Source of the DNA: Gordonia polyisoprenivorans
GTDB lineage: Bacteria > Actinomycetota > Actinomycetes > Mycobacteriales > Mycobacteriaceae
Direction: 5' to 3'
DNA length: 64,000 nucleotides
Assembly: GCF_017654315.1 (NCBI RefSeq)
Contig: NZ_CP072203.1
Location: 1 to 64,000 of the forward strand
The translations under genes were made by a program, and so were the position numbers. Below are positions 1-14,638 of the stretch, one piece after another. Positions within the stretch are counted from its first letter, which is position 1. Every line of letters starts with the position of its first letter. The notes under the pieces are model-generated. The model was given only the letters and a program-made list of their open reading frames with translations, ran no database searches and was not told the origin of the DNA.

Positions 1-1
1 G

Positions 2-397
2 GTATCCGCGCTGGGTGCGGTCAGCTATGGCAAGGCGCGGAACCTGGTGGCGCTGGCGCGAGCCGCTTACGACCAGGCGCTCGCAAGCTACGACGTCCTT
101 CTGATGCCGACACTTCCCTACACCGCCTCTGAGCTGCCGGACCGTACGACCATTGATCGTGGTACGTACGTGACCAAGGCACTTGGAATGGTGGTGAACA
201 CCGCCCCGCTGGATGTGACGGGGCATCCGGCTCTGTCGGTGCCGGCCGGTCAGGTCGACGGGTTGCCGGTGGGAATGATGATCATCGGCAAGCACTTCGA
301 TGACGCCACTGTTCTCCGTGCTGGTGCTGCTTTTGAGCGGCTCAGTGGCGGCTTTCCCTCGCCGGCATCGACGCCGGAAACAGCTATCTCGATGTAG
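2..397 (+). CDS. Amidase (amidase-signature family), C-terminal part only
   Basis: The gene enters from the left edge, so its start and catalytic Lys/Ser/Ser residues lie outside the window. The 131 visible residues align along their length with the C-terminus of the second amidase in this window (6300-7874), sharing the stretches TKALGMVVNTAP, DVTGHPALSVPAG and VDGLPVGMMI. By family it would hydrolyse amides made by nitrile hydratase to carboxylic acid and ammonia. The last 27 codons are part of a 1,979-bp repeat and recur behind ahpC. It lies 34 bp upstream of the truncated hemoglobin gene and probably heads the aldoxime-nitrile operon. Confidence 0.85.
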   Translation, partial: VSALGAVSYGKARNLVALARAAYDQALASYDVLLMPTLPYTASELPDRTTIDRGTYVTKALGMVVNTAPLDVTGHPALSVPAGQVDGLPVGMMIIGKHFDDATVLRAGAAFERLSGGFPSPASTPETAISM

Positions 398-431
398 TTC
401 AGCCCATGTCAAAGAGTGAAGGAAACAGCCC

Positions 432-923
432 ATGAGTGAGCAGCAGGATGCTTCGTTGTATGACCGTTTGGGGGGTCTTGAGACGGTCGAGTTTTTGGCT
501 CGGATTCTGGTGACCCGAGCGATTTTAGATCCGACGATCGGCCATGTGTGGAAACACAAGACAGAGGCCGAGATTCAGGAGGAGATCAGCGGGTTCGTCG
601 ATTTCCTGGGTATGCATTGGGGTGGCCCGCAGGTGTATCACGGACCCGACATGGCCACAGCACACCGCGGGATGGGTGTGACCGAGGAATATTGGGACGC
701 CCTATTCAACGACATCGTCACCCCCGCGTACGCCGAGTTCAATCTGCCGGAGCGCGAAGCGAAAGAGATCGACGAATTCCTACGGTCATTCAAGTCCGTG
801 GTCGTCGGTAGCCCCACGTTCCGTGAGGTGCTGGTGGCCAACCCCGACATGAACGTGATGGAGGGCATGAAGAGTGTGGGTGTGGTGTGGCCTGATCCTG
901 GCAAGGTGGTTGCGGGTTCGTAG
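432..923 (+). CDS. Truncated hemoglobin linked to aldoxime dehydratase (copy A)
   Basis: This 163-residue protein begins with the LYDRLGG pre-helix motif of 2-over-2 truncated hemoglobins. The region around residues 69-84 (YHGPDMATAHRGMGVT) matches the proximal-histidine segment of group I members, with His78 as likely heme ligand. A tail of about 35 residues (NPDMNVMEGM onward) extends past the globin fold. GAAGGA lies upstream of the ATG. Such globins bind O2, NO or heme. The neighbouring enzyme works only with ferrous heme, so a role in heme supply, NO/O2 protection or redox poise is inferred. An identical copy lies at 11614-12105. Confidence 0.88.
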   Translation: MSEQQDASLYDRLGGLETVEFLARILVTRAILDPTIGHVWKHKTEAEIQEEISGFVDFLGMHWGGPQVYHGPDMATAHRGMGVTEEYWDALFNDIVTPAYAEFNLPEREAKEIDEFLRSFKSVVVGSPTFREVLVANPDMNVMEGMKSVGVVWPDPGKVVAGS

Positions 924-950
924 CCCGCGTGGAATCGGCTGGTGGTTGGT

Positions 951-1157
951 ATGACTGCTAGAGCGACTGTGGAGGTGTCGCGGTTGTGTGTGGGAGCGGG
1001 GATGTGTTTGGCGGTTGCGCCGGAACATTTTGCTTTCACCGGTGGTGGTCGTGCTGTGGGCACGAAGGACGTGGTGGGTACGGCGGAGTTGCAGTTGGTT
1101 GTTGATGCTGCGAAAGCGTGCCCGGCTCGTGCGATAACGATTACAGACCGCGCGTGA
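951..1157 (+). CDS. Small [3Fe-4S]-type ferredoxin (copy A)
   Basis: This 68-residue protein has cysteines in CVGAGMC and ACPARA, the three-cysteine pattern of actinobacterial [3Fe-4S] ferredoxins that usually serve cytochrome P450s. An in-frame GTG at 942 is possible; ATG 951 gives the usual family N-terminus (ATVEVSRLCVGAG). It lies between the hemoglobin and aldoxime dehydratase genes. No P450 is in the window, so the likely client is the adjacent heme enzyme, which must be ferrous to act; this is inference. Third codon positions are rich in T and G, unlike the C/G-ending codons of most neighbours. An identical copy lies at 12133-12339. Confidence 0.85.
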   Translation: MTARATVEVSRLCVGAGMCLAVAPEHFAFTGGGRAVGTKDVVGTAELQLVVDAAKACPARAITITDRA

Positions 1158-1189
1158 TGCGTGCTTGATGTGAAGAAAGTGTGACGCCT

Positions 1190-2248
1190 GTGGAATCAGC
1201 AATCGACACTCATCTTGTGTGTCCGAGGAGTATTTCCCGTCGTGTTCCTGACGACTATCAGCCGCCGTTCTCAATGTTCGTCGGACGTGCTGACCAGAAG
1301 ATCAAACAGGTCACGATGGCGTATCTGGGGGTGCAGTCGAAGGGCGCAGAACGCCGTGCTGACGCGTTGGCGGCGGTAACGACACTGGTGTCGAGTGTGG
1401 AGGGCCCGGATGGTGCGGGGCATTACGACATCACCCACCATGTCGATAATCAGGGCTACGACAACTACATTGTCGTTGGATATTGGGATGATCCTGATGT
1501 TTTCGGCCGATGGTTGGATTCGGCGGATGTCGAGCAGTGGTGGTCGTCAGAGGATCGCCTATCTGAGCCGGTCGGGTATTTCCGGGAAGTCGTGGCTCCG
1601 CGTGTTGATCAACTGGAGACACTGTATGCGTTCACCGACGAGTTGCCCGGCGTCGGACAACTGATGAACGACATCAGTGGTGACATCAACGAGCACGGCT
1701 ACTGGGGTTCGATGCGTGAACGGATCCCGTTGTCGCAGACGAGTTGGATGCAACCCGCGGGAGAGGACGTCTTACGGATCGTCTCCGGAGACCCAGCCGC
1801 TGGTGGTCGGGTGGTAGTCGCCGGCCATGACAACATTGCGTTGATCCGATCAGGTCAGGACTGGCGTGAAGCCGGAGAACAGGAGCGAGCGCTCTACCTC
1901 GACGAGATCCAGCCCACCCTGCAGCAAGGAATGGACTTCCTGCGTGATCACGGTGCTGAACACGGCTGCTACAGCAACCGTTTGGTACAAAACATCGATA
2001 TCGACGGAAACCCGCTGGACGAAACCTACAACATCGGGCACTGGCGATCATTGGAGAAACTAGAGCGGTGGGCCGAATCCCATCCCACCCACCTACGAAT
2101 CTTCACAACATTCTTCAAAGTTGTCGCCAACCTGGACAAACTCCGGCTCTATCACGAAGTATCAGTATCAGATACCAGTGACCAGATCTTCGAATACATC
2201 AACTGCCATCCGGCCACCGGCCTGATGCGCGACGCCCAGCCGGCCTGA
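1190..2248 (+). CDS. oxd: Aldoxime dehydratase (copy A)
   Basis: A heme enzyme that dehydrates aldoximes (R-CH=NOH) to nitriles, the first step of the aldoxime-nitrile pathway. The 352-residue sequence follows Rhodococcus OxdRE/OxdRG closely, beginning MESAIDTHL and containing WGSMRER, ALIRSGQDW, PTHLRIF and RLYHEVSVSD. By that alignment His301 is the proximal heme ligand (His299 in OxdRE), His322 the catalytic histidine (His320), and the Arg in MRER and the Ser in IRSGQ the other active-site residues. GTG 1190 is chosen over GTG 1181 because relatives start there and GAAAG sits about 10 bases upstream. The next gene, 57 bp on, is the nitrile hydratase that would use its product. Confidence 0.95.
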   Translation: MESAIDTHLVCPRSISRRVPDDYQPPFSMFVGRADQKIKQVTMAYLGVQSKGAERRADALAAVTTLVSSVEGPDGAGHYDITHHVDNQGYDNYIVVGYWDDPDVFGRWLDSADVEQWWSSEDRLSEPVGYFREVVAPRVDQLETLYAFTDELPGVGQLMNDISGDINEHGYWGSMRERIPLSQTSWMQPAGEDVLRIVSGDPAAGGRVVVAGHDNIALIRSGQDWREAGEQERALYLDEIQPTLQQGMDFLRDHGAEHGCYSNRLVQNIDIDGNPLDETYNIGHWRSLEKLERWAESHPTHLRIFTTFFKVVANLDKLRLYHEVSVSDTSDQIFEYINCHPATGLMRDAQPA

Positions 2249-2305
2249 TACCCGACAACCAACCCACCACAACCCAACCAACCGTCAATCAGTGAGGAGA
2301 ACAGT

Positions 2306-3001
2306 ATGAATGGTGTATTCGATCTGGGTGGGACCGACGGTCTCGGCCCAGTTGCCGTTGTCGAGGATGAACCGATTTTCCGGGCAGAGTGGGAAAAGCC
2401 GATGTTCACGATGTTTTCCGCGTGCTTCCGCGCGGGATTCTTCGGCGTCGACTCCTTCCGCCACGGCATCGAGAAGATGGACCCGGCAACCTATTTGAAG
2501 GCCCCCTACTACGAACACTGGTTGTTCACGATCGAGAACGCCAGCATCGCCGCCGGGGCCGTCGACCCGGAGGAGCTCGATCGTCGTACCGAGTACTACC
2601 TGAAGAATCCCGATGCTCCGCTACCCGAGCACGAGCAGTCACAAGAGCTCATCGACTTCGTCAACGCAGTGGTGCCGGCCGGCGCTCCGGCGGCGCGGGA
2701 GACCGACAAGGTGGCTCGCTTCTCGGTGGGCGACGTGGCTCGCGTGATCGATGTGAGCCCGTATGGCCACACCCGTCGTGCCCGTTACGTGCGCGGCAAG
2801 GTGGGCACCGTGATCGCCCATCACGGTTCATTCATCTACCCCGATACCGCGGGCAATGGACTCGGGGAGAATCCCGAGCATGTGTACACGCTGAAGTTCA
2901 CCGCAGAAGAGCTGTGGGGCGCAGAGGCCGCCGACCCGAACGGAACGGTGTGCTTCGACGTCTGGGACCCCTACCTCGAACTGATCACCGAAGGAGCATG
3001 A
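2306..3001 (+). CDS. nhhB: Cobalt-type nitrile hydratase, beta subunit
   Basis: Beta subunit of the heterodimeric enzyme that hydrates nitriles to amides in the cytoplasm. Its 231 residues begin [16 protein letters not shown], a standard beta start, and end with the SH3-like C-terminal domain ([23 protein letters not shown]). The arginine near residue 52 (DSFR) and that in the TRRARY stretch are kept; in the family these hydrogen-bond to the oxidised cysteines of the alpha metal site. The beta-before-alpha order is typical of cobalt-type operons. AGGAG precedes the ATG at good spacing. The 1,979-bp repeat stops just upstream, so this gene is single copy. Confidence 0.95.
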
Positions 3002-3003
3002 GC

Positions 3004-3606
3004 ATGAGTTTTTCTACCCCCAGTCAAGAAGAGATCGCCGCGCGCGTCAAGGCGCTGGAATCGATGCTGATCGAGAAGGGCGTGATGACCACGTCCATGG
3101 TCGATCGCATCGTCGACATCTACGAGAACGAGGTGGGTCCGCAGCTGGGCGCAAAGGTCGTCGCCAAGGCGTGGGCAGATCCGGAGTTCAAGGCCAAGCT
3201 CGTCGCCGATGCCACCGAGGCGTGCAAGGAACTCGGCATCAGCGGGCTGCAGGGCGAGGACATGGTGGTGCTCGAGGACACCGATACCTTGCATCATGCC
3301 ATCGTGTGCACACTGTGCTCGTGCTACCCGTGGCCCGTACTCGGCTTGCCGCCCAACTGGTACAAGGATCCGCAGTACCGGGCCCGCATCGTGCGTGAAC
3401 CACGCAAGGTCCTCGCCGAGGACTTCGGCTACTCGGTGCCCGAGTCGGTGGAGATCCAGATCTGGGACTCCAGTTCGGAGATGCGCTATTGGGTTCTGCC
3501 CCAGCGGCCCGCCGGCACCGACGGGTGGACCGAGGAGCAGCTGGCCGAGCTGGTGACGCGCGACTCGATGATCGGAGTCGGACCAGTGAAGGCTGCCGCG
3601 GCATGA
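3004..3606 (+). CDS. nhhA: Cobalt-type nitrile hydratase, alpha subunit
   Basis: Metal-binding catalytic subunit, 200 residues. The claw motif at residues 102-107 is CTLCSC followed by Tyr; Thr at the second position marks low-spin cobalt(III) enzymes, whereas iron enzymes have Ser. In the family Cys105 and Cys107 become sulfinic and sulfenic acids. ATG 3004 is preferred to ATG 2998 because AAGGAG (2991-2996) is spaced correctly only for 3004. The stop overlaps the activator start (ATGA), so the two are translationally coupled. Its metal should come through NhlF (4143-5255) and be delivered by the downstream activator. Confidence 0.96.
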
Positions 3607-4016
3607 GCGCCGCAGCGCCCGAAGCCGATCAGCGCGCAGCCATCGAGGACCTCGTCTGCGATCTCCCCGGGGCCCGCGAAGGTGAGCTCTCGTTCGAGTA
3701 TCCTTGGCAGATAAGGGCGTTCGCGCTTGCTGTGGTCGCTCACCAGAACGGGAAGTACGAGTGGACTCAGTTCCAGGGAGCATTGATCGCCTCCATCCAG
3801 GAATGGGAGACCTCGGTCGGCGATCTGTCCGACGAGTCGTGGTCGTACTACCAACACTGGGTGACCGCCCTGGAGCAGGTACTCGCCGAGAAAGGCACCC
3901 TCTCCACCGACGAGTTCGAGAAGAAGACCGCAGAGGTTCTCGCGACTCCGGCAAACCGTAATCATCACCACGCAGTTCTCGAGCCGATTGCGATCGACAA
4001 AGCAACTGCTTCCTGA
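3603..4016 (+). CDS. nhhG: Cobalt nitrile hydratase activator / subunit-swapping chaperone
   Basis: A 137-residue protein of the NhlE/NhhG (P14K) family, distantly related to the beta-subunit N-terminus. Family signs are the stretches [19 protein letters not shown] and WTQFQGALI. In Rhodococcus rhodochrous the homologue carries a cobalt-loaded alpha subunit and exchanges it into apo-enzyme (self-subunit swapping). The start ATG 3603 overlaps the alpha stop. A His/Asn-rich stretch (NRNHHH) near the C-terminus could bind metal; that is inference. A strong hairpin follows 23 bp after the stop. Confidence 0.85.
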
Positions 4017-4038
4017 GTCCAAAGCTCTTCCGAGGGTT

Positions 4039-4079
4039 CGCGTGCCGGCCATACTGTTCCCATTCATGGTCGGCACGCG
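4039..4079 (+). terminator. Hairpin between nhhG and the cobalt transporter gene
   Basis: Fourteen-base arms (4039-4052 and 4066-4079) pair with one G-T wobble around a 13-base loop. No U-tract follows. It could be a terminator or attenuator lowering transporter transcription relative to the nitrile hydratase genes. Confidence 0.6.
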
Positions 4080-4142
4080 TCATCGGTATGTCCCGAGTCC
4101 GGCGGTTCGTTTCACACGAACGCGCAAGTGCAGGAGAATCAC

Positions 4143-5255
4143 ATGGCCCAAGTCAATTCGGTGGCGGCGTCGAAAAAACCGACGAAGCGGTGGGGTACCA
4201 GAGACTACCTTGATGCCGGCATCCAGCTCAGCGTGGTGGCCGTCATGCACGTCGTCGCTTTCGGCGTTCTTTTCTCGGTGGTCGTGCCGCATCACTATCA
4301 GCTCGGCACCCAGGTTTTCACTGTCGGATTAGCATTTACCGCTTACGTCTTCGGACTGCGTCACGCTTTCGATGCCGATCACATCGCGGCCATTGACAAC
4401 ACCACGCGGAAGCTGATGAACGATGGTAAGCGACCGAAGTCCGTGGGCTTCTGGTTTGCGATGGGCCACTCAACCATCGTTTTCGTTCTGGCGATCATGG
4501 TGATCATCGGAACTCGTGCGGTCGCGGCCCTCACCAACGACGACTCCCCCATACGACATGCCCTGGGCACCATCAGCACACTGGCGTCCGGAGGCTTCCT
4601 CTATCTGATCGCGCTGATCAATGTCGTTGCTTTGATCGCTATCTGGCGTGTTTTCCGCAGTATGCGCGCGGGCCACTTCGATAATGATGAATTGGAATCC
4701 GCGCTCAACGCGCGCGGCTTCTTGGCACGTGTGCTGAATCCTTTGATGCGCCGCATTTCCCGGCCCATCCAGGTGTATCCGGTTGGTGTGTTGTTCGGCT
4801 TGGGCTTTGACACCGCAACCGAGGTTGCCCTGTTGGCGTTGGCCGGTACCGGTGCGGTCGCGGGTCTGCCGTGGTACGCGATCCTGGTACTACCACTACT
4901 CTTTGCCAGCGGCATGAGCTTGATGGACACCGTTGACGGCATGTTCATGACGGTCGCCTACGACTGGGCATTCTCACATCCGGCTCGAAAGATCTACTAC
5001 AACCTCACCATCACCGGACTGTCGGTCGCGGTGGCATTCCTGATCGGCACCATCGAGATGATCAGCGTATTGCATGATGACTTGGGCTGGAATGACGCAG
5101 TGACCGAGTGGATCAGCGGTATTGATCTCAATACCGCGGGCATCGCCATCGTGATCATGTTCGTCGTTGCTTGGCTCGTTGCCGTGGCGTATTGGAAGAT
5201 CGGGAAAGTCGAGTCGAAATTGAATGTAGCACCCACCGGGCAATCAGCACCCTAG
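4143..5255 (+). CDS. nhlF: Cobalt transporter of the NiCoT family
   Basis: A 370-residue membrane protein with all NiCoT signatures: RHAFDADHI at residues 73-81, FAMGHSTIV in the next helices, LGFDTATE, and GMSLMDTVDG. These mark single-component Ni2+/Co2+ permeases; beside a cobalt nitrile hydratase it corresponds to NhlF of R. rhodochrous J1. ATG 4143 is chosen because AGGAG (4132-4136) sits six bases upstream; an in-frame start at 4128 lacks a site. Codon use looks less GC-rich than in downstream genes. A hairpin separates it from nhhG, so it may be expressed at a lower level. Confidence 0.95.
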   Translation: MAQVNSVAASKKPTKRWGTRDYLDAGIQLSVVAVMHVVAFGVLFSVVVPHHYQLGTQVFTVGLAFTAYVFGLRHAFDADHIAAIDNTTRKLMNDGKRPKSVGFWFAMGHSTIVFVLAIMVIIGTRAVAALTNDDSPIRHALGTISTLASGGFLYLIALINVVALIAIWRVFRSMRAGHFDNDELESALNARGFLARVLNPLMRRISRPIQVYPVGVLFGLGFDTATEVALLALAGTGAVAGLPWYAILVLPLLFASGMSLMDTVDGMFMTVAYDWAFSHPARKIYYNLTITGLSVAVAFLIGTIEMISVLHDDLGWNDAVTEWISGIDLNTAGIAIVIMFVVAWLVAVAYWKIGKVESKLNVAPTGQSAP

Positions 5256-5343
5256 ATATCGACCCGGCTGGTTATCGTCCCAGTAAAACTGTCACGCCGG
5301 CTGTTTCAGCCGAGTAGGCCGTGGCAAGCGGAGGGAACCACAA

Positions 5344-5766
5344 ATGAAAGTTCTTTACACCACAGATGCATTGGCCACCGGTGACGGTCGAGAAGGTCAT
5401 GGCCGCTCGGGTGATGGTGTTCTCGATGTCACCCTCGGCTTACCGACCGGAATGGGCGGCTCGGGTAAGGGCACCAATCCCGAGCAGTTGTTCGCCGTCG
5501 GATACGCGGCGTGTTATCACAACGCGTTGCGCATCGTCGGGCGGCAAGCCAAGGCCGACATCACCGATTCTGCGGTTGGCGCACAGGTCACCCTCGGGCA
5601 GACAGAAGAGGGTGACTATCAGCTCGCGGTGATCCTGGAGGTCTCGTTGCCCAATCTCGACGCCTCGACCGCCCGCGAACTCGCCGACCAGGCACACCAG
5701 ATGTGCCCGTACTCGCGGGCGACCCGCGGGAACATCGATGTAGAGGTCACCCTCGTGTCCGAGTAG
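5344..5766 (+). CDS. ohr: Organic hydroperoxide resistance protein (Ohr/OsmC family)
   Basis: A 140-residue thiol peroxidase that reduces organic hydroperoxides. Both reactive cysteines are visible, in GYAACYHNAL and QMCPYSRATRG, and the N-terminus LYTTDALATGDGREGHGRS is typical of Ohr. It resembles the second Ohr at 60902-61324, but has no ohrR partner nearby. GGAGGGAA lies upstream of the ATG. Its position between the two nitrile hydratase gene sets suggests a protective role for the oxidation-sensitive enzymes or a need created by the substrate; this is inference. Confidence 0.9.
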   Translation: MKVLYTTDALATGDGREGHGRSGDGVLDVTLGLPTGMGGSGKGTNPEQLFAVGYAACYHNALRIVGRQAKADITDSAVGAQVTLGQTEEGDYQLAVILEVSLPNLDASTARELADQAHQMCPYSRATRGNIDVEVTLVSE

Positions 5767-5833
5767 ACAATCCGGCCGGTGGCGGTGGTCCGCCGAGGTC
5801 ACCAAACCGGACCACCGCACCACAGGCTCGCAA

Positions 5834-5909
5834 CAAAGCCCGTACCCACGCTGATGACGGCGCGTCTCGCTTCCCCGAGACCGCCCCGTCGGCGCAGGTA
5901 CGGGCTTTG
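5834..5909. terminator. Nested stem-loop after ohr
   Basis: Outer arms of 13 bases (5834-5846 and 5897-5909) are perfectly complementary. Inside are shorter pairs (GACGG with CCGTC, GTCTCG with CGAGAC), giving a branched 76-base structure. It lies 67 bp after ohr in a 534-bp gene-free stretch. It could end the first operon or act as an RNA element before the second. Confidence 0.5.
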
Positions 5910-5940
5910 CTGTCGTGTGGCAGAGTGGGCGGTGGGACCA

Positions 5941-5987
5941 TCCACATCTCGTGGACGTGTTGATACTTATTGACATGTGATCCACAT
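5941..5987. promoter_or_regulatory. Possible operator region upstream of the iron nitrile hydratase operon
   Basis: TCCACAT occurs at 5941-5947 and 5981-5987, and its complement ATGTGGA at 6196-6202. The second site sits in a small palindrome, ATGTG-ATC-CACAT (5975-5987). These repeated half-sites in the long leader before the amidase could bind a regulator. None of the known nitrile-cluster regulators is encoded in the window. The rest of 5767-6299 holds the hairpin at 5834-5909 and no convincing gene. Confidence 0.35.
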
Positions 5988-6299
5988 CGCACTACATTTC
6001 CCTCTGTGGCACTACGTACACCCTTGGCAGCCGGCTGGGGTGAGGCCGAGGCGATCCGCGCAACAACTGCGAGAGGTTCGCCCATCGCGTCTTCGCAACC
6101 CTCGTGATTCTGCAATCATGTTGTGCGCGAACGTAATACACAATCCCGAAACATGATTCTCCATGCCGGTTACGGCGGCGAAACGCGTTCTTTACATGTG
6201 GATATGTCGATACGTGTTGACGCGAAGTCGAAGGGATTCGTAGCCTCGTTGACACCAGCCAAACCCCACGCGGGCCTCACCTTGAACTCAGGAGATCTC

Positions 6300-7874
6300 A
6301 TGACGGTTCGACGCCCCGATGTCGATGACATTGCCGTTGCAGCTCAACACTTCGGGATCACTGTTGACGAGTCCGACCGAGCTGAACTCGTCGACCTCGT
6401 CGACGGAGCTTTGGGATCATACGACGTGGTGGAGGACCTGTACGCCGAGTGCGCCGCGCCGACGACGCCCCTCCGGGACTACACGATCGCCGAGTCGGGA
6501 GAGTCAAATCCGTTGGGCGCGTGGTACGTCACCACGTCGATCAGGTCGGAGAACCCGGCCGACGATCGGCTCGCGGGTCGTCGCGTGGCCATCAAGGACA
6601 ACGTGGCCGTCGCCGGGGTGCCGATGATGAATGGTTCACGATCCTTGGAAGGTTTCGTGCCGGCACGGGACGCGACCGTCGTCTCGCGGCTCCTCGACGC
6701 CGGAGCCGACATCGTCGGCAAGTCCGTATGCGAGGACCTGTGTTTCTCTGGTTCGAGTTTCACCCCGGCGACGGGCCCGGTGCGTAATCCCTGGGATCGT
6801 GACCGCGAAGCCGGGGGCTCGTCGGGTGGGAGTGCGGCGCTCGTGGCCAGCGGTGAGGTCGATCTCGCGATCGGTGGCGACCAGGGCGGATCGGTCCGCA
6901 TTCCGGCCGCGTTCTGCGGAGTGGTCGGGCACAAGCCAACCTTCGGCCTGGTTCCCTACACAGGTGCGTTCCCCATCGAGCGCACCATCGATCATCTCGG
7001 TCCGATCGCACCCACCGTCGAAGACGCGGCGCTGATGCTCTCGGTCCTGGCGGGTTCGGACGGACACGATCCGCGCCAGGCGGGCGACGTCGTCGTCGCG
7101 GACTACGTGAGCGGTCTCGCTCGGGGTATCGGAGGTGTTCGGATCGGCGTCGTCGAGCAGGGCTTTGGTCAGGCCTCGTCGCAGCCGGAGGTCGACGCCA
7201 CCGTGCGGGCGGCTGTGCAGCAATGCTCCGATGCCGGTGCTATCGTCGAATCCGTAAGTATCCCTTGGCATCTCGATGCATTTCACATATGGAATGTGAT
7301 AGCCACCGACGGCGCGGCATACCAGATGCTCGATGGAAACGGGTACGGCCTCAACGCCGGCGGACTCTATGACCCGGAGCAGATGGAGTTCTTCGCCCGG
7401 CAGCGTGTGCGCAACGCCGATCAGTTGTCGGAGACGGTGAAACTCGTTGCGCTGTGCGGCTATCACGGCGTCTCCGAGCTCGCCGCGACCGTCTATGCCA
7501 AGGCGCGAAATCTGGTTCCGATCGCTCGCGCGGCGTACGACGACGCGCTCGCCGAGTACGACGTCCTGGTGATGCCCACCGTGCCCTACGCGGCGACAGA
7601 GCTGCCGGACCTGGCGAGCATCGACCGCGGTACCTACCTCACCAAAGCCTTGGGGATGGTGGTCAACACCGCTCCCTTCGACGTCACCGGACATCCCGCG
7701 CTCTCGGTTCCCGCCGGACTGGTGGACGGACTCCCGGTGGGCATGATGATCGCCGGCAAGCACCATGATGACGCCACGGTCCTGCGAGTCGGACACGCCT
7801 TCGAGCAACTACGTGGCGACCTCGGCGTACCGGCGATTCGCCGGACGACCGCCAGTGAGTTTGCGTCTGCCTGA
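6300..7874 (+). CDS. Amidase (enantioselective, amidase-signature family)
   Basis: A 524-residue enzyme hydrolysing amides to acids and ammonia, the last step of the nitrile pathway. The amidase-signature triad is visible: Lys99 in AIKDN, the cis-Ser at 174 in GGSSGGS, and nucleophile Ser198 in GGDQGGSVR. It resembles the Rhodococcus N-771 amidase beside the iron nitrile hydratase, including HLGPIAPTV and HLDAFHIWNVIATDG. ATG 6300 is preferred to in-frame starts further upstream because it has GGAG before it and matches the homologous N-terminus. It leads the iron nitrile hydratase genes, 73 bp before the alpha subunit. Confidence 0.95.
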   Translation: MTVRRPDVDDIAVAAQHFGITVDESDRAELVDLVDGALGSYDVVEDLYAECAAPTTPLRDYTIAESGESNPLGAWYVTTSIRSENPADDRLAGRRVAIKDNVAVAGVPMMNGSRSLEGFVPARDATVVSRLLDAGADIVGKSVCEDLCFSGSSFTPATGPVRNPWDRDREAGGSSGGSAALVASGEVDLAIGGDQGGSVRIPAAFCGVVGHKPTFGLVPYTGAFPIERTIDHLGPIAPTVEDAALMLSVLAGSDGHDPRQAGDVVVADYVSGLARGIGGVRIGVVEQGFGQASSQPEVDATVRAAVQQCSDAGAIVESVSIPWHLDAFHIWNVIATDGAAYQMLDGNGYGLNAGGLYDPEQMEFFARQRVRNADQLSETVKLVALCGYHGVSELAATVYAKARNLVPIARAAYDDALAEYDVLVMPTVPYAATELPDLASIDRGTYLTKALGMVVNTAPFDVTGHPALSVPAGLVDGLPVGMMIAGKHHDDATVLRVGHAFEQLRGDLGVPAIRRTTASEFASA

Positions 7875-7947
7875 AAAGAACACGGACAGAGGTGGTTTCA
7901 CCGTTGTCCTTCCGTAAGTGTCAGCCCAACAGTTGAAAGGTTCACCA

Positions 7948-8583
7948 ATGTCATTGACGATCGACCACGCTCACGATACCGAGCTCACCCACGCTCCCGG
8001 GGTGCCCGCGCAGGCACCCGCGGGTGACCGCGCCTGGGCCCTGTACAACGCACTGAACTCCAAGGGGCTCGTTCCCGAGGGGTACGTGGAGAACTGGAAG
8101 AAGACCTTCGAGGAGGACTTCACTCCCCGCCGGGGCGCTGCGCTCGTGGCACGCGCGTGGACTGATCCCGAGTTCCGTGAACTGCTGCTGACCGACGGCA
8201 CCGCTGCTGTCGGACAGTACGGATGGCTTGGCGCGCAGGGCGAGTACATCGTAGCCGTCGAGGACACGCCGACTCTGAAGAACGTGATCGTCTGCTCGCT
8301 CTGCTCGTGCACCGCATGGCCGATCCTGGGTCTGCCGCCGACCTGGTACAAGAGCTTCGAGTACCGCGCGCGAGTCATCCGGGAGCCGCGCACCGTGCTG
8401 GCCGAACTCGGAACCGTACTGCCCGACGACGTGAAGATCCGTGTGGTCGAAACGAGCGCCGAGACTCGTTACCTGGTGCTTCCGATGCGGCCGGCAGGCA
8501 CCGAGGGTTGGAGTGCCGAACAGCTCGAGAAGATCGTCACCAAGGATTGCCTCATCGGCGTCGCTCTGCCCACCGTCTCCTGA
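7948..8583 (+). CDS. nha1: Iron-type nitrile hydratase, alpha subunit
   Basis: Catalytic subunit of 211 residues. The metal claw at 116-121 reads CSLCSC followed by Thr, the non-heme iron(III) signature, unlike CTLCSC in the cobalt enzyme at 3004-3606. The protein is nearly collinear with the N-771 alpha subunit (WKKTFEEDFTPRRGA, GEYIVAVEDTPTLKNV, CTAWPILGLPPTWYKS). Iron-type relatives are inactivated by nitric oxide and reactivated by light; that could apply here. GAAAGG lies seven bases before the ATG. The alpha-before-beta order, amidase upstream and P47K activator downstream are the standard iron-type layout. Confidence 0.97.
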   Translation: MSLTIDHAHDTELTHAPGVPAQAPAGDRAWALYNALNSKGLVPEGYVENWKKTFEEDFTPRRGAALVARAWTDPEFRELLLTDGTAAVGQYGWLGAQGEYIVAVEDTPTLKNVIVCSLCSCTAWPILGLPPTWYKSFEYRARVIREPRTVLAELGTVLPDDVKIRVVETSAETRYLVLPMRPAGTEGWSAEQLEKIVTKDCLIGVALPTVS

Positions 8584-8631
8584 TATCCCCACACCAGCCC
8601 ACTCACTCGAACGTAAAGGACGTCATTCGTC

Positions 8632-9285
8632 ATGGATGGAGTACATGATCTCGGTGGTAAGCAGGGCTTCGGCCCCGTCGACCACACCGTGAACCAGTAT
8701 GAGGGTGGCCAGCCGGTCCCCGAGACCTTCCACGCAGACTGGGAGCACCTGCCCTACAGTCTGTTCTTCCTCGGCGTCGCCGAGCTCAACAAGTTCAGCG
8801 TCGACGAGGTCCGCCACGTCGTCGAGCGCATCGCTCCCGTTCACTACCTGGTCACGCCGTACTACGAGCGCTATGCGATCGGTGTCGCCACTCTGATGGT
8901 CGAGACCGGGGTCCTCACACACGAGGAGCTGGAAACACTTGCCGGCGGGCCATTCCCGCTGGCGCTGCCCGCGGTCTCCGAGGGCCGGCCGGCCCGCGCC
9001 GACAAGGTGGAGTTCAACGTCGGCGACACCGTGCGCGTGCGTGACGACTACTTCGCCGGTCATATCCGTATGCCCGCGTACTGCCGCGGCAAGACCGGGG
9101 TGGTCCGACACCGGACAGCCGACAAGTGGCCGTTCCCGGATGCGATCGGCCACGGCCGAACCGACGGTGGTGAAGAGCCGACTTACCACGTGGAGTTCAC
9201 CGGAGAAGAATTGTTCGGCGACGACACCGAATCGGCGAGCGTACTGGTAGATCTGTTCGAGGGGTACCTCGAGCCGGCCGCCTGA
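8632..9285 (+). CDS. nha2: Iron-type nitrile hydratase, beta subunit
   Basis: A 217-residue beta subunit beginning MDGVHDLGGKQGFGPV and containing EWEHLPYSLF-like and TPYYERYAIGVATLMVE stretches of iron-type beta chains. Arg61 in DEVR and the Arg of GHIRMPAYCRG match the two arginines (56 and 141 in N-771) that contact the oxidised alpha cysteines. The C-terminal SH3-like part ends VDLFEGYLEPAA, as in N-771. It follows the alpha gene by 48 bp with AAAGGA upstream and forms the alpha-beta dimer with it. Confidence 0.97.
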   Translation: MDGVHDLGGKQGFGPVDHTVNQYEGGQPVPETFHADWEHLPYSLFFLGVAELNKFSVDEVRHVVERIAPVHYLVTPYYERYAIGVATLMVETGVLTHEELETLAGGPFPLALPAVSEGRPARADKVEFNVGDTVRVRDDYFAGHIRMPAYCRGKTGVVRHRTADKWPFPDAIGHGRTDGGEEPTYHVEFTGEELFGDDTESASVLVDLFEGYLEPAA

Positions 9286-9327
9286 TCCTCGTTCCCCCTT
9301 CTGATCCTCGCATTCCCTTCTGATCTC

Positions 9328-9364
9328 GGTGGCGGGCACGCGCCCACCTTCCGTGCCCGCCACC
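9328..9364 (+). terminator. Hairpin between iron nitrile hydratase beta and its activator
   Basis: Perfect 13-base arms (9328-9340 and 9352-9364) flank an 11-base loop, with no U-tract. It lies 43 bp after the beta stop and 128 bp before the activator start. It may reduce read-through so that the GTPase activator is made in smaller amounts than the enzyme, paralleling the hairpin at 4039-4079. Confidence 0.6.
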
Positions 9365-9492
9365 GTCTTCACCACCGGTCTCAGCCCCCGAACTCCGGTG
9401 TACCCCCTTCTTCGTTGTCATTCAGCCCGAGTGATGCGCAGCGCAGTCCACGGCGACTGTGTGTCTCAGTCCATGAGAGGACGTTATCGACG

Positions 9493-10728
9493 ATGGTCGA
9501 CTCACGACTTCCGGTCACTGTGCTGTCCGGCTTCCTGGGTGCAGGTAAGACCACCCTGCTCAATCAGATTCTGCGCAACCGGGACGGCCGCCGCGTCGCG
9601 GTGATCGTCAACGACATGAGCGAGATCAACATCGACAGTGCGCAAGTCGAGCGTGAGATCACCCTGAGCCGTTCGCAGGAGAAGTTGGTCGAGATGACCA
9701 ACGGATGTATCTGCTGCACACTGCGCGAAGATCTACTCGCCGAGATCGGCGTCCTGGCCGCAGCGGGTCGTTTCGACTACCTGCTGATCGAATCCTCCGG
9801 TATCTCCGAGCCCCTGCCGGTCGCCGAGACCTTCACCTTCATCGATCCTTCCGGACACGCTCTCGATGACGTTGCCCGACTGGATACGATGGTGACCGTT
9901 GTCGACGGGAGTAGCTTTCTCGTCGACTATCGCAACGGGGGCGCAGTGGATGCCGATGCGCCCGAGGATCAACGCGACCTGTCCGATCTCCTGGTCGATC
10001 AGGTGGAGTTCGCCGACGTCATCCTGATCAGCAAGGTCGATCTCATCGTCGAGGAGGACCTCGCCGAACTCGTCGCGGTGATTCGATCGCTGAACGCATC
10101 GGCTCGGATTGTGTCGATGTCTCATGGGGATGTCCCCCTTGACATCATCATGAACACTGGCTTGTTTTCGTTGGAGAAGGCCGCCGCCGCACCCGGGTGG
10201 TTGCAGGAACTCCAGGGCGAGCACACTCCCGAGACCGAAGAGTACGGAATCAGTTCCGTCGTCTACCGTGAGCGGGCGCCTTTCCATCCCGAACGGCTCC
10301 ATCAGTTCTTGAACGCGCCGTGGGAGAACGGACACCTGCTGCGCGCCAAGGGATACTACTGGAACGCTGCCCGATTCACCGAGATCGGCAGCATTTCCCA
10401 GGCAGGACATCGGATTCGGCACGGATACATCGGTCGCTGGTGGAAATTCCTACCGGAGAGCTATTGGCCGGCCGACGATTACCGGCGTCAGGGAATCCTC
10501 GACAAGTGGGAGGAGCCGGTCGGCGACTGCCGCCAGGAACTGGTCTTCATCGGTCAGGGCATCGATCCGGGGCGGCTGCGTCGAGACCTCGATGAGTGCC
10601 TGCTGACCACGGCCGAGATCGAGCTGGGCCCCGATGTATGGACTGCCTGGCCCGACCCGCTCGGCGTCGGCGAAGGTGACGCCGTAGCCAGTCATGTCGG
10701 CCAGACGAACGCGGCCCAGGCCGTCTGA
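9493..10728 (+). CDS. nha3: Iron nitrile hydratase activator (P47K, CobW/COG0523 GTPase)
   Basis: A 411-residue G3E GTPase required in iron-type systems for metal insertion. Walker A is GFLGAGKTT (13-21); the CxCC metal motif is at 72-75 ([11 protein letters not shown]); SKVD is the likely guanine-specificity motif. The sequence matches the N-771 activator through its C-terminal stretch ([29 protein letters not shown]). ATG 9493 is preferred over 9415 because homologues start MVD(S/T)[12 protein letters not shown]. It serves the iron enzyme, while the unrelated NhhG serves the cobalt enzyme. Confidence 0.96.
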
Positions 10729-10810
10729 CCAGCGCCGATCTGATACCACCGATGTGACATCACCGATCTGATACTGCGCCACTGCACGCACATTCATCTC
10801 TGCACCACCT

Positions 10811-10849
10811 GGTGACGACCCGCCCTGCATTCCCTGCCGGGTCGCCACC
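10811..10849 (+). promoter_or_regulatory. Hairpin in the ahpC leader
   Basis: Twelve-base arms (10811-10822 and 10838-10849) pair with one mismatch around a 15-base loop, ending 34 bp before the ahpC start. Just upstream, CCGATCTGATAC occurs twice as a short direct repeat. It may be a terminator for the nitrile operon or a leader element. Confidence 0.4.
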
Positions 10850-10883
10850 GGTAATCATCCGCCGACGAGGAGACCACAGAGCC

Positions 10884-11471
10884 ATGCCCCTGTTGACCAT
10901 CGGGGATCAGTTCCCCGCCTACAACCTCACCGCTGTGATCGGTGGCGACCTGTCGAAGGTCGACGCCCAGCAGCCCGACGACTACTTCACCCAGATCTCC
11001 AGCGATGATCATCCCGGAAAGTGGCGGATCATCTTCTTCTGGCCCAAGGACTTCACCTTCGTGTGCCCGACCGAGATCGCCGCCTTCGGCAAGCTCAACG
11101 ACGAGTTCGCCGACCGCGACGCCCAGGTACTCGGCGCATCGGTGGACAACGAGTTCGTCCACTTCCAGTGGCGCGCCCAGCACGAGGACCTCAAGACCCT
11201 GCCCTTCCCGATGCTGAGCGACCTCAAGCGCGAACTGGCCACCGCAGCAGGTGTTCTCAACGCCGATGGGGTGGCCGATCGCGCCACCTTCATCGTCGAC
11301 CCGAACAACGAGGTCCAGTTCGTGTCGGTCACCGCGGGTTCAGTGGGCCGCAATGTCGACGAAGTGCTCCGCGTCCTCGACGCCCTGCAGTCCGACGAAC
11401 TGTGCGCATGCAATTGGCGCAAGGGCGACCCCACCATCAACGCAGGCGAACTGCTGACCGCCAGCGTCTGA
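10884..11471 (+). CDS. ahpC: Alkyl hydroperoxide reductase AhpC
   Basis: A 195-residue two-Cys peroxiredoxin with peroxidatic Cys61 in TFVCPTEIAAF and C-terminal cysteines in DELCACNWRKGDPT. It is almost collinear with mycobacterial AhpC. It reduces hydrogen peroxide, alkyl hydroperoxides and peroxynitrite. In mycobacteria the next gene is ahpD, which recycles AhpC; here the duplicated hemoglobin-ferredoxin-Oxd block begins about 25 bp after the stop and no ahpD is present. No oxyR was seen. ATG 10884 matches the conserved MPLLTIGDQFPAY start. Confidence 0.95.
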   Translation: MPLLTIGDQFPAYNLTAVIGGDLSKVDAQQPDDYFTQISSDDHPGKWRIIFFWPKDFTFVCPTEIAAFGKLNDEFADRDAQVLGASVDNEFVHFQWRAQHEDLKTLPFPMLSDLKRELATAAGVLNADGVADRATFIVDPNNEVQFVSVTAGSVGRNVDEVLRVLDALQSDELCACNWRKGDPTINAGELLTASV

Positions 11472-11496
11472 GCCGCCCGAACTCGCGCAATAATTT

Positions 11497-11579
11497 TCCG
11501 TGCTGGTGCTGCTTTTGAGTGGCTCAGTGGCGGATTTCCCTCGCCGGCATCGACGCCGGAAACAGCTATCTCGATGTAG
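11497..11579 (+). pseudogene. Amidase C-terminal fragment
   Basis: These 83 bp match the last 27 codons of the left-edge amidase and are carried along by the repeat. There is no start codon or upstream amidase sequence; the ahpC 3' region abuts it. Two substitutions relative to copy A (11520, 11534) fall here; one changes Arg to Trp. Confidence 0.85.
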
Positions 11580-11613
11580 TTCAGCCCATGTCAAAGAGTG
11601 AAGGAAACAGCCC

Positions 11614-12105
11614 ATGAGTGAGCAGCAGGATGCTTCGTTGTATGACCGTTTGGGGGGTCTTGAGACGGTCGAGTTTTTGGCTCGGATTCTGGTGACCCGA
11701 GCGATTTTAGATCCGACGATCGGCCATGTGTGGAAACACAAGACAGAGGCCGAGATTCAGGAGGAGATCAGCGGGTTCGTCGATTTCCTGGGTATGCATT
11801 GGGGTGGCCCGCAGGTGTATCACGGACCCGACATGGCCACAGCACACCGCGGGATGGGTGTGACCGAGGAATATTGGGACGCCCTATTCAACGACATCGT
11901 CACCCCCGCGTACGCCGAGTTCAATCTGCCGGAGCGCGAAGCGAAAGAGATCGACGAATTCCTACGGTCATTCAAGTCCGTGGTCGTCGGTAGCCCCACG
12001 TTCCGTGAGGTGCTGGTGGCCAACCCCGACATGAACGTGATGGAGGGCATGAAGAGTGTGGGTGTGGTGTGGCCTGATCCTGGCAAGGTGGTTGCGGGTT
12101 CGTAG
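11614..12105 (+). CDS. Truncated hemoglobin linked to aldoxime dehydratase (copy B)
   Basis: Identical in protein sequence to the gene at 432-923 and preceded by the same GAAGGA site. It has the 163-residue globin with the LYDRLGG start and likely proximal His78. Here it follows ahpC rather than an intact amidase, so its promoter must be inside the repeat, in the ahpC region, or shared by read-through from ahpC. Confidence 0.88.
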   Translation: MSEQQDASLYDRLGGLETVEFLARILVTRAILDPTIGHVWKHKTEAEIQEEISGFVDFLGMHWGGPQVYHGPDMATAHRGMGVTEEYWDALFNDIVTPAYAEFNLPEREAKEIDEFLRSFKSVVVGSPTFREVLVANPDMNVMEGMKSVGVVWPDPGKVVAGS

Positions 12106-12132
12106 CCCGCGTGGAATCGGCTGGTGGTTGGT

Positions 12133-12339
12133 ATGACTGCTAGAGCGACTGTGGAGGTGTCGCGGTTGTGTGTGGGAGCGGGGATGTGTTTGGCGGTTGC
12201 GCCGGAACATTTTGCTTTCACCGGTGGTGGTCGTGCTGTGGGCACGAAGGACGTGGTGGGTACGGCGGAGTTGCAGTTGGTTGTTGATGCTGCGAAAGCG
12301 TGCCCGGCTCGTGCGATAACGATTACAGACCGCGCGTGA
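12133..12339 (+). CDS. Small [3Fe-4S]-type ferredoxin (copy B)
   Basis: Identical to the ferredoxin at 951-1157: 68 residues, three cysteines (CVGAGMC and ACPARA). It again sits between the hemoglobin and Oxd genes, so the three genes were duplicated as one unit. An alternative GTG start lies nine bases upstream. Confidence 0.85.
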   Translation: MTARATVEVSRLCVGAGMCLAVAPEHFAFTGGGRAVGTKDVVGTAELQLVVDAAKACPARAITITDRA

Positions 12340-12371
12340 TGCGTGCTTGATGTGAAGAAAGTGTGACGCCT

Positions 12372-13430
12372 GTGGAATCAGCAATCGACACTCATCTTGT
12401 GTGTCCGAGGAGTATTTCCCGTCGTGTTCCTGACGACTATCAGCCGCCGTTCTCAATGTTCGTCGGACGTGCTGACCAGAAGATCAAACAGGTCACGATG
12501 GCGTATCTGGGGGTGCAGTCGAAGGGCGCAGAACGCCGTGCTGACGCGTTGGCGGCGGTAACGACACTGGTGTCGAGTGTGGAGGGCCCGGATGGTGCGG
12601 GGCATTACGACATCACCCACCATGTCGATAATCAGGGCTACGACAACTACATTGTCGTTGGATATTGGGATGATCCTGATGTTTTCGGCCGATGGTTGGA
12701 TTCGGCGGATGTCGAGCAGTGGTGGTCGTCAGAGGATCGCCTATCTGAGCCGGTCGGGTATTTCCGGGAAGTCGTGGCTCCGCGTGTTGATCAACTGGAG
12801 ACACTGTATGCGTTCACCGACGAGTTGCCCGGCGTCGGACAACTGATGAACGACATCAGTGGTGACATCAACGAGCACGGCTACTGGGGTTCGATGCGTG
12901 AACGGATCCCGTTGTCGCAGACGAGTTGGATGCAACCCGCGGGAGAGGACGTCTTACGGATCGTCTCCGGAGACCCAGCCGCTGGTGGTCGGGTGGTAGT
13001 CGCCGGCCATGACAACATTGCGTTGATCCGATCAGGTCAGGACTGGCGTGAAGCCGGAGAACAGGAGCGAGCGCTCTACCTCGACGAGATCCAGCCCACC
13101 CTGCAGCAAGGAATGGACTTCCTGCGTGATCACGGTGCTGAACACGGCTGCTACAGCAACCGTTTGGTACAAAACATCGATATCGACGGAAACCCGCTGG
13201 ACGAAACCTACAACATCGGGCACTGGCGATCATTGGAGAAACTAGAGCGGTGGGCCGAATCCCATCCCACCCACCTACGAATCTTCACAACATTCTTCAA
13301 AGTTGTCGCCAACCTGGACAAACTCCGGCTCTATCACGAAGTATCAGTATCAGATACCAGTGACCAGATCTTCGAATACATCAACTGCCATCCGGCCACC
13401 GGCCTGATGCGCGACGCCCAGCCGGCCTGA
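12372..13430 (+). CDS. oxd: Aldoxime dehydratase (copy B)
   Basis: Identical to the 352-residue enzyme at 1190-2248, with the same heme and catalytic histidines (301 and 322). No nitrile hydratase follows; the next gene is on the opposite strand. This copy could raise Oxd dosage or act as a spare, and its product would feed either nitrile hydratase in trans. Confidence 0.95.
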   Translation: MESAIDTHLVCPRSISRRVPDDYQPPFSMFVGRADQKIKQVTMAYLGVQSKGAERRADALAAVTTLVSSVEGPDGAGHYDITHHVDNQGYDNYIVVGYWDDPDVFGRWLDSADVEQWWSSEDRLSEPVGYFREVVAPRVDQLETLYAFTDELPGVGQLMNDISGDINEHGYWGSMRERIPLSQTSWMQPAGEDVLRIVSGDPAAGGRVVVAGHDNIALIRSGQDWREAGEQERALYLDEIQPTLQQGMDFLRDHGAEHGCYSNRLVQNIDIDGNPLDETYNIGHWRSLEKLERWAESHPTHLRIFTTFFKVVANLDKLRLYHEVSVSDTSDQIFEYINCHPATGLMRDAQPA

Positions 13431-13475
13431 TACCCGACAACCAACCCACCACAACCCAACCAACCGTCAATCAGT

Positions 13476-13645: not shown

Positions 13646-14638
13646 TCACATCGCGTCGATCTTGGGCAGGATGTCATTCTTGAGTCGTTTCATGTCATCC
13701 ATGGTTTTTGCGGTCGGTACGTCGGCGAATGGCGGCCACAGCAGTAGGGTGGTCAGCCCCGCCTCTCGGTAGTGCTTGAGCATGTCGGTGACCTGCCGTT
13801 CAGAACCGACCAGCAGATTGCTCGCCTTGCCTGCCGGGGTCTGATCCATGTCGACGTCGGTGATCACCGTCCAGATCATGGTGGCGATGTCGAGGTCGTC
13901 GATGGTGCGGTCGGTGTCGAGCGCGTCGAGTTCGCCGGCGATCCCCGCTCGCCACTGCGCGATCTCCTCCGGTGAGTCCTGGATGCCGATCCAGCCGTCG
14001 AGCCCATACTTGGCGACTCGTTTCGCGGCCCGCTTGGCATCCTTGAGACCGCTGAAGTACATCGGTGGCCGCGGAGCCTGCAGAGGCTTGGCACCGAATC
14101 CGCTCGGACCGAAGTCGGCGAACTCGCCGTGGTACTCGAAGACCTCGTTGGCCCAGATGCCCTGCAGGATCTCGATGGTCTCGCGAAGGTGCTGATGGCG
14201 GCGGGGGAAGATGTGACTGGCGCTGGCGGCTGCGAACTCCTCGGGCATCCAGCCCGATCCCACTGCGACATTGAGGCGTCCGTTGCTCAGATGATCGATG
14301 GTGGCCAGTTCGGCAGCGAGCACGCCGGGTGCGCGGTACGGGGTGTCGATGATGCTCATGCCGATCCGGACCTTGGAGGTCTTGGCAGCCAGCCACGGCA
14401 GCAGCGGGAATCCCTGCAGGAACTGACCGCGCGAAGACACCGGTAGCTGCTTGGGGAGCTCGTGCATCATTCCGAATGCGTACTCCATCTCCGCTCGATC
14501 GGAGGACTCCGGGACGATGACACGGTCGAGCGTCCACACCGAGGAGAAGTCGAGTTCCTCGGCGAGAGCGGTCAGTTCTTCGAGTTCGGCGACGGTGATC
14601 TGCTCGCGAAAGTTGGGTAGGTACAGGGCGAGTTCCAT
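13646..14638 (-). CDS. LLM-class (luciferase-like) F420/flavin-dependent oxidoreductase
   Basis: A 330-residue TIM-barrel protein of the luciferase-like monooxygenase family. It starts MELALYLPNFREQ and has RIGMSIIDTPYRAPGVLAAELATIDHLS-type and GRLNVAVGSGWMPEEF segments typical of F420- or FMN-using members. Its substrate cannot be read from sequence. It is the last gene of a leftward operon after an SDR and an acyl-CoA ligase (34-bp gap), which suggests a role in breakdown of a carboxylic acid or isoprenoid side chain. Confidence 0.85.
   Translation of the reverse strand: MELALYLPNFREQITVAELEELTALAEELDFSSVWTLDRVIVPESSDRAEMEYAFGMMHELPKQLPVSSRGQFLQGFPLLPWLAAKTSKVRIGMSIIDTPYRAPGVLAAELATIDHLSNGRLNVAVGSGWMPEEFAAASASHIFPRRHQHLRETIEILQGIWANEVFEYHGEFADFGPSGFGAKPLQAPRPPMYFSGLKDAKRAAKRVAKYGLDGWIGIQDSPEEIAQWRAGIAGELDALDTDRTIDDLDIATMIWTVITDVDMDQTPAGKASNLLVGSERQVTDMLKHYREAGLTTLLLWPPFADVPTAKTMDDMKRLKNDILPKIDAM

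Follow-up and report, generated by a model that had tools for sequence, protein, structure and literature searches.

Adjoining cobalt-type and iron-type nitrile hydratase operons with duplicated aldoxime dehydratase genes in Gordonia polyisoprenivorans

Nitrile hydratases (NHases) are industrial enzymes, and the locus of Gordonia polyisoprenivorans considered here (contig NZ_CP072203.1) contains, side by side, one NHase operon of predicted cobalt type and one of predicted iron type, each with a gene for aldoxime dehydratase (oxd). Among the closest described systems, Rhodococcus sp. YH3-3 likewise combines in one genome an iron-type NHase cluster including oxd and amidase genes with a cobalt-type NHase and amidase cluster; there, however, the clusters are separate and the cobalt cluster is devoid of oxd (PMC4888990), whereas the Gordonia operons adjoin and both contain it. 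Rhodococcus sp. M8 also combines both types in its genome (PMC5805882), namely a cobalt-type cluster (nhmBA) and an iron-type cluster that includes oxd and amidase genes. These are again described as different clusters; the former is likened to the J1 H-NHase, and its expression is reported to be cobalt-activated. Rhodococcus erythropolis N-771 shares amidase, alpha and beta subunits, P47K activator and a nearby oxd with the present locus, but has a single metal type (PMC8955678).

Three relatives read from genome sequences are similar to one or the other half of the locus. The cobalt locus of Gordonia oryzae RS15-1S (L028) displays the same order of ArsR-type, Nhr1-type, amidase, oxd, beta, alpha, activator and NicT genes, but has one oxd and no iron NHase, and no globin relative was found in its genome (G027) at E 1e-20. 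The iron locus of Rhodococcus sp. KRD197 (L029/L066) comprises genes for ArsR, Nhr1, amidase, alpha, beta, P47K and a terminal oxd as in the iron operon, but lacks a cobalt NHase, globin or AhpC-like gene in the stretch read, its oxd following directly 3' of P47K. In Rhodococcus globerulus NBRC 14531 (L033), amidase, alpha, beta and P47K genes with an oxd nearby are present, but with a single metal type, one oxd in the stretch and that oxd located upstream of the amidase.

The window, i.e., the whole stretch analyzed here, covers bases 1–64,000 of a genome assembled as one contig (6,033,879 bases, 100 % complete, 0.2 % contamination). Since this contig starts within the nitrile locus, its last 20 kb (L003) were read as well. 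Operon 1 comprises, in this order, genes for amidase 1, a globin, Oxd, NHase beta, NHase alpha (CTLCSC), an activator, a NicT-type transporter and Ohr, and is preceded at the contig end by an ArsR-type gene, an Nhr1-type gene and the start of amidase 1. Operon 2, adjoining operon 1, comprises genes for amidase 2, NHase alpha (CSLCSC), NHase beta, P47K, an AhpC-like protein, a second globin and a second Oxd. All nitrile genes are located on the plus strand, and we infer that each gene set would form a single transcript. The features of the two operons are as follows (ORF, open reading frame):

L003:18762–20000, other end of the same contig: amidase 1 (cobalt operon), 5' part
2–397, plus strand: amidase 1, 3' end, last 131 residues in the window (PF01425, 65.9 bits)
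432–923, plus strand: group 1 truncated haemoglobin-like gene (globin), copy 1 (PF01152, 38.1 bits)
1181–2248, plus strand: aldoxime dehydratase (oxd), copy 1 (PF13816, 318.2 bits; NF050090, 640.6 bits)
2306–3001, plus strand: NHase beta, cobalt type (TIGR03888, 267.7 bits)
3004–3606, plus strand: NHase alpha, cobalt type, CTLCSC (TIGR01323, 311.7 bits)
3603–4016, plus strand: NHase activator, cobalt type, NhhG-like (TIGR03889, 72.1 bits, ORF residues 69–143; ORF open from 3489, likely start 3603)
4128–5255, plus strand: NicT/NhlF-type nickel/cobalt transporter (PF03824; NF052500, nickel transporter NicT, and TIGR00802 above cut-off)
5344–5766, plus strand: Ohr/OsmC-type peroxidase (TIGR03561, 168.7 bits)
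6300–7874, plus strand: amidase 2 (iron operon; NF005565, 734.5 bits, match from ORF residue 60; ORF open from 6123, likely ATG 6300)
7948–8583, plus strand: NHase alpha, iron type, CSLCSC (TIGR01323, 290.6 bits)
8632–9285, plus strand: NHase beta, iron type (TIGR03888, 237.9 bits)
9415–10728, plus strand: P47K, COG0523/CobW-type activator with CICC motif (PF02492, PF07683)
10812–11471, plus strand: AhpC/TSA-like peroxiredoxin (PF00578; reaches no NCBIfam cut-off)
11614–12105, plus strand: globin, copy 2 (PF01152, score equal to copy 1)
12363–13430, plus strand: oxd, copy 2 (NF050090, 640.6 bits)

Cobalt-type and iron-type alpha subunits are separated by a residue rule, Thr/Tyr versus Ser/Thr. 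The alpha subunit encoded at 3004–3606 contains CTLCSC followed by Tyr, and its best solved relative is 4ob1 (E 6.5e-133), the chain of which is named cobalt-containing NHase. The alpha subunit encoded at 7948–8583 contains VCSLCSCTAWP, i.e., CSLCSC followed by Thr, with 2qdy (E 1.8e-111), which we take to be an iron-type NHase, and 2ahj (E 5.9e-111) as best solved relatives. The latter structure is that of the N-771 enzyme, an iron-type NHase according to PMC8955678. As described in PMC7193024, cobalt-type NHase genes are arranged in the order beta, alpha, activator, and iron-type genes in the order alpha, beta, activator, the latter activator belonging to COG0523 and carrying a CXCC motif. 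The first order is found in operon 1 (2306–3001, 3004–3606, 3603–4016), the second, together with the CICC motif, in operon 2 (7948–8583, 8632–9285, 9415–10728). Thus, motif, gene order and activator family agree on one putative cobalt-type and one putative iron-type enzyme. An earlier note on this DNA, made from the letters alone, had proposed a cobalt-type and an iron-type alpha subunit, each with its own gene order and activator; family profiles and motifs place all genes named there at or near the positions assigned to them, and both amidases are real, the first being cut by the contig start with its remainder at the other contig end. The two alpha subunits are 47 % alike, the two amidases 71 % in protein and 72 % in DNA.

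Alpha subunits with a mixed motif (CTLCSCTAWP), 68–71 % identical to the iron alpha, are encoded in Sphingobium indicum (P0148) and in a metagenome-assembled genome (MAG) of the Pseudomonadota (P0158), so that the motif by itself cannot give the metal. Assignment of the P47K protein as the zinc metallochaperone ZigA was rejected (584.7 bits, below the equivalog cut-off of 600). The transporter at 4128–5255 is suggested to be a cobalt importer by its place in the cobalt locus and by a CbtA-type (cobalt transporter) gene located downstream of the activator in the related locus L034.

The NHase alpha family was matched in 16 of 59 Gordonia genomes. Alphas sharing 70 % identity or more with the iron alpha of the window were classed as iron type, weaker matches being typed in part; cobalt loci were defined by an alpha more than 65 % identical to the cobalt alpha of the window, with surroundings read over 15 to 20 kb. 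On this basis, an iron-type alpha is encoded in 20 of 401 genomes of the family sample; at E 1e-70, the iron alpha was matched in 3/397 genomes of the order sample and 1/394 of the class sample, the window being included in all three counts. Fuller samples of two genera yielded no further iron-type genome (15/28 and 1/37). None of the 20 other iron loci (19 from the family sample and one from the order sample) has a neighbouring cobalt-type alpha, and none of the nine cobalt loci has an iron alpha. Three loci with a CTLCSC alpha (L071, L094, L095) fall below the 65 % rule and are not counted among the nine; this alpha is the only one matched in them, and no oxd was matched. Titles and abstract starts revealed no recognisable published single locus with both types, most subscription papers lying outside the coverage of the search. 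No other locus with adjacent cobalt and iron operons was found among those read, and both types in one genome are already known. The proposal of the earlier note that one locus carries both types is upheld to this extent, while its notion of one metal type per strain is not, as YH3-3 and M8 possess both in separate clusters.

Two further genomes combine a CSLCSC alpha with either a CTLCSC alpha or a relative of the cobalt alpha. In Gordonia genome G017, CSLCSC and CTLCSC alphas are located on separate contigs. Among the protein-database matches listed (120 of 1,335 in one search), Streptomyces sp. V4I23 (P0156, P0235) has an alpha with CSLCSC together with a relative (81 %) of the cobalt alpha on one chromosome-size contig of 8,013,931 bases. 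Another 11 Gordonia loci (L012–L020, L022, L023) encode NHase-alpha-like proteins 44–47 % identical to the cobalt alpha and without the C[TS]xC motif; those of L012, L013, L022 and L023 contain CALCSCYPRP, and that of the related locus L024 CALCTC and an internal stop.

The second copy of the globin and oxd genes forms part of a direct repeat:

312–2293, plus strand: direct repeat, copy 1 (amidase 1 tail, globin, oxd, to just 5' of NHase beta)
11494–13475, plus strand: direct repeat, copy 2 (scrap of the amidase 1 tail, globin, oxd)

The two copies of 1,982 bp share 99.849 % identity (blastn), with three mismatches at positions 314, 338 and 352 and agreement at every base from 353 to 2293 (the last 1,941 bp); hence the two globin genes are identical, as are the two oxd genes. 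Both Oxd proteins pass the cut-off of NF050090 (640.6 versus 600 bits), i.e., that of the aliphatic aldoxime dehydratase OxdA. An aldoxime dehydratase had already been recognised in the earlier note, which overlooked its second identical copy together with the globin and the repeat, even though the end it assigned to the locus (13475) is the repeat end. The first 86 bp of the repeat represent the 3' end of amidase 1, and in copy 2 this tail is orphaned 3' of the AhpC-like gene without an amidase before it, which points to copying of globin-oxd from operon 1. Seven other cobalt loci with an oxd gene were read. In L027, L028, L030 and L034 this gene immediately follows the amidase, in L026 and L031 it comes after the NHase genes, and in L072 it is located on the opposite strand. 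Since the place of copy 1 is thus a usual one (4/7), copy 2 is most simply derived from copy 1. All three mismatches fall within the first 41 of the 1,982 positions, which by simple arithmetic has a chance of about 1 in 100,000 if mismatches were evenly spread; this clustering is likely due to gene conversion or to the edge of a recombination event.

With respect to regulation, the two genes preceding operon 1 and a short site before each amidase are of relevance:

L003:16673–17068: ArsR-type helix-turn-helix gene
L003:17108–18496: Nhr1-type gene (PF13458/PF13433)
C1:6032602–6032612: candidate Nhr operator before amidase 1, TATGTCGATAC
6203–6213, plus strand: candidate Nhr operator before amidase 2, TATGTCGATAC, with a TTGACG −35-like box at 6217–6222

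The Nhr1-type protein is 67 % identical to the nitrile hydratase regulator1 of Rhodococcus sp. JVH1 (P0028), other relatives bearing the names substrate-binding protein or nitrile hydratase; a literature search on Nhr1 found nothing. A single gene of this type is detected in the genome when the threshold is set at E 1e-60. Of 59 Gordonia genomes, six encode Nhr1, each of them with an NHase alpha match, and the gene is located by NHase loci, before the amidase, in 13 relatives. The ArsR-type gene adjoins Nhr1 in cobalt loci (L026, L027, L028, L030, L034, L072) as well as in iron loci (L066, L067, L073, L075, L076, L079, L083). A role of the ArsR-type protein as cobalt sensor was considered and rejected, because it contains only one cysteine and is conserved before iron-only loci.

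The upstream regions of both amidases have one 12-mer in common, in opposite directions, the 11-base core of which (TATGTCGATAC) occurs twice in the 6.03-Mb genome (reversed control, 0). The weight of this candidate operator lies in the position of the two copies, one per amidase, rather than in their count. In the relatives, the 13-mer TATGTCGATACGT with at most three mismatches was found within 260 bases 5' of the amidase in 13/13 loci with Nhr1 (no mismatch in two, one in six, two in three and three in two) and in 0/10 loci without it (best matches with 4 to 6 mismatches); among shuffles, 7.2 % of 1,300 for the Nhr1 group reached at most three mismatches, and 3.1 % of 1,000. A TTGAC box, read by eye, directly follows the site in 13/13 relatives in the manner of a −35 element. 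The comparison of 13 and 10 relatives was made without L096 and L097; in L097, the Nhr1 of which is more distant (42 %), the best match to TATGTCGATACGT in 19 kb has three mismatches and is located 64 bases 5' of NHase beta. One regulator pair is thus likely to act on both operons at these candidate sites, with the ArsR-type or the Nhr1-type protein as putative binder.

Taken together, the locus probably represents two self-sufficient, co-induced operons, one for a cobalt-type and one for an iron-type enzyme, which would respond to one pathway signal rather than to a metal switch. Each operon would provide the full route from aldoxime via nitrile and amide to the acid, operon 2 having presumably acquired its own aldoxime step when a duplicate of the operon 1 globin-oxd unit was placed at its end, with the copies being kept alike through recent copying or gene conversion. 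The ArsR-type and Nhr1-type pair, encoded just before operon 1, would act on the candidate site upstream of either amidase; in this way a compound of the pathway, and not a metal, may switch on both operons together. Each enzyme would then mature with its own metal by means of its own activator. A tentative extension, to which we assign a rather low probability, is a hedge on metal after translation: one inducer would always lead to formation of both apo-enzymes, and the available metal would decide which of them matures, the identical copied oxd rendering both routes interchangeable from the first step to the last.

Several points weigh against this interpretation, which is built on sequence comparison. 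The candidate site was derived post hoc by comparing the two promoters of the window, its direction in operon 1 is opposite to that in operon 2, about 0.65 exact copies of TATGTCGATAC are expected in the genome from base composition (rendering the count weak), and a search of the window that tolerates one mismatch yields one site versus 0.42 expected; a general promoter scan retrieved two sites versus 3.5 expected. Five of the 13 relatives (L073, L075, L076, L079, L083) are 90–99.6 % alike in their upstream regions and count as little more than one or two, and in four of the ten controls (L031, L078, L080, L081) the position inferred for the amidase start does not coincide with a start codon, so that the upstream stretch is poorly placed. 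These near-copies, the four badly anchored controls and the expected 0.65 copies render the operator evidence slightly weaker. Of the regulator pair, the genome copy count covers the Nhr1-type gene. Around globin-oxd copy 2 there are intergenic distances of 142 and 257 bases as well as a weak hairpin at 12189–12206 (10 such sites detected by the hairpin scan versus 7.1 expected), and copy 2 may or may not be transcribed together with operon 2. Finally, reading amidase 1 over the contig ends reveals a one-base frame break at their junction, which is likely, if not proven, to be a fault of assembly closure.

The earlier note had supposed that the cell may choose between the enzymes by metal supply or substrate size. 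At the level of transcription, a choice by metal finds no support in the sequence, given the single Nhr1-type gene (at E 1e-60), the ArsR-type/Nhr1 pair before cobalt-only as well as iron-only loci, and the like site before both amidases; selection after translation, depending on which metal is available, may still occur. A transcriptional switch, with operon 1 transcribed at ample cobalt supply and operon 2 otherwise, could nevertheless be seen in the ArsR-type protein encoded upstream, since the ArsR family includes many metal sensors. In addition, expression of the M8 cobalt NHase was reported to be activated by cobalt (PMC5805882). Considering that the ArsR-type gene stands equally before the seven iron-only loci listed above, that its product has one cysteine and that a similar site precedes both amidases, we regard such a switch as decidedly unlikely. 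A division of labour by substrate, in which the two NHases would accept different nitriles, the two amidases different amides, and the metal would be incidental, is a possibility of rather low probability: the limited similarity of the amidases (71 %) and alphas (47 %) may entail different specificities, and the YH3-3 cobalt NHase has a distinct substrate range according to PMC8955678, whereas identical oxd copies imply that aldoximes would be converted into the same set of nitriles by either operon. This division is compatible with co-induction of two self-sufficient operons, not exclusive of it.

A segment of 9.2 kb lies between the two 1,982-bp repeat copies, which would also be expected if two clusters had been joined by recombination at globin-oxd, either through single-crossover integration of a circle or through tandem duplication, into an unstable doubled state of no special use. 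The cluster GC content (0.58–0.65 versus 0.65–0.68 at 18 to 24 kb) and the opening of the contig inside the nitrile locus agree with such a transient merger, but no frame break was seen in the nitrile genes apart from the contig junction, and the amidase 1 tail in copy 2 would be needless for a crossover between two complete loci; this origin therefore appears unlikely. The identity of the copies over the last 1,941 bp, the contig start only 311 bases before copy 1 and the one-base frame break at the junction could even raise suspicion that an assembly artefact underlies either copy 2 of globin-oxd or the neighbouring position of the operons. However, the copies differ at three places and in their flanks, the genome is a single, 100 % complete contig with 0.2 % contamination, and a second record (6,048,280 bases) contains at least the same Nhr1 and alpha proteins; an artefact is hence highly improbable. 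Co-induction of two self-sufficient operons remains the reading that we favour.

In each of three quick trees, built from 26 rows for Oxd, 28 for amidase and 15 for Nhr1, cobalt and iron loci are intermixed. The KRD197 iron locus (L066) groups with the cobalt locus L034 of a Mycobacterium MAG in all three (SH-aLRT 98 for Oxd, 87 for amidase and 99 for Nhr1), and both amidases of the window fall within a single six-member group of Gordonia amidases, in which cobalt as well as iron loci are represented (SH-aLRT 95). Support is uneven, with several forks open and long branches flagged, amidase 2 among them. The simplest reading would be a lasting frame of regulator, amidase and oxd genes with exchanged cobalt or iron NHase cassettes, both of which are present in the window.

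The G+C content per kb, 0.58–0.65 over the first 13 kb and 0.65–0.68 at 18 to 24 kb, is in keeping with gain of the cluster from elsewhere. A plasmid origin was tried and rejected for both genes examined: for the iron alpha, tblastn against 72,556 plasmid records matched 179 (40 listed), one of them at 60 % identity or more (a Burkholderia replicon), and for the transporter 114 plasmid records were matched, none at 60 % or more. Beyond operon 2 lies a flanking gene:

13646–14638, opposite strand: luciferase-like gene

Relatives of this gene were detected at E 1e-60 in 6/58 other Gordonia genomes, and the comparison by way of them yielded no clean empty site. In G. oryzae (L087), the relative stands with FadD and TetR relatives, none of the left-hand neighbours being present there above 55 % identity.

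Further genes accompany the nitrile pathway. The best solved relatives of globin copy 1 are group 1 truncated haemoglobins (E 3.1e-10). A globin relative (E 1e-20) is encoded in 4 of 59 Gordonia genomes, close ones (76–78 %) being restricted, besides the window genome, to G022 and G050, where both adjoin a cobalt NHase; globin relatives lie with nitrile clusters at L026:11167–11631, L027:12653–13123 and L034:11467–11919. A literature search found nothing tying truncated haemoglobin to nitrile hydratase, and we can only guess that the globin handles NO or oxygen for the haem enzyme Oxd. Each operon contains one peroxidase gene, the two belonging to different families (Ohr at 5344–5766 and AhpC-like at 10812–11471), and an OsmC-type gene is also located within the cobalt locus L034. 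A link of these peroxidases to cysteine oxidation during NHase maturation is conceivable.

To our knowledge, the reason why nature keeps both cobalt and iron forms of NHase is not settled. The trees suggest that NHase cassettes have been swapped within a lasting framework of regulator, amidase and oxd genes, and the candidate operator offers a testable handle on control by Nhr1. With both forms in one genome, supplied by the same Oxd and apparently governed by the same operator, cobalt-type and iron-type NHases would become comparable in one cell and under one signal, with many confounders removed.

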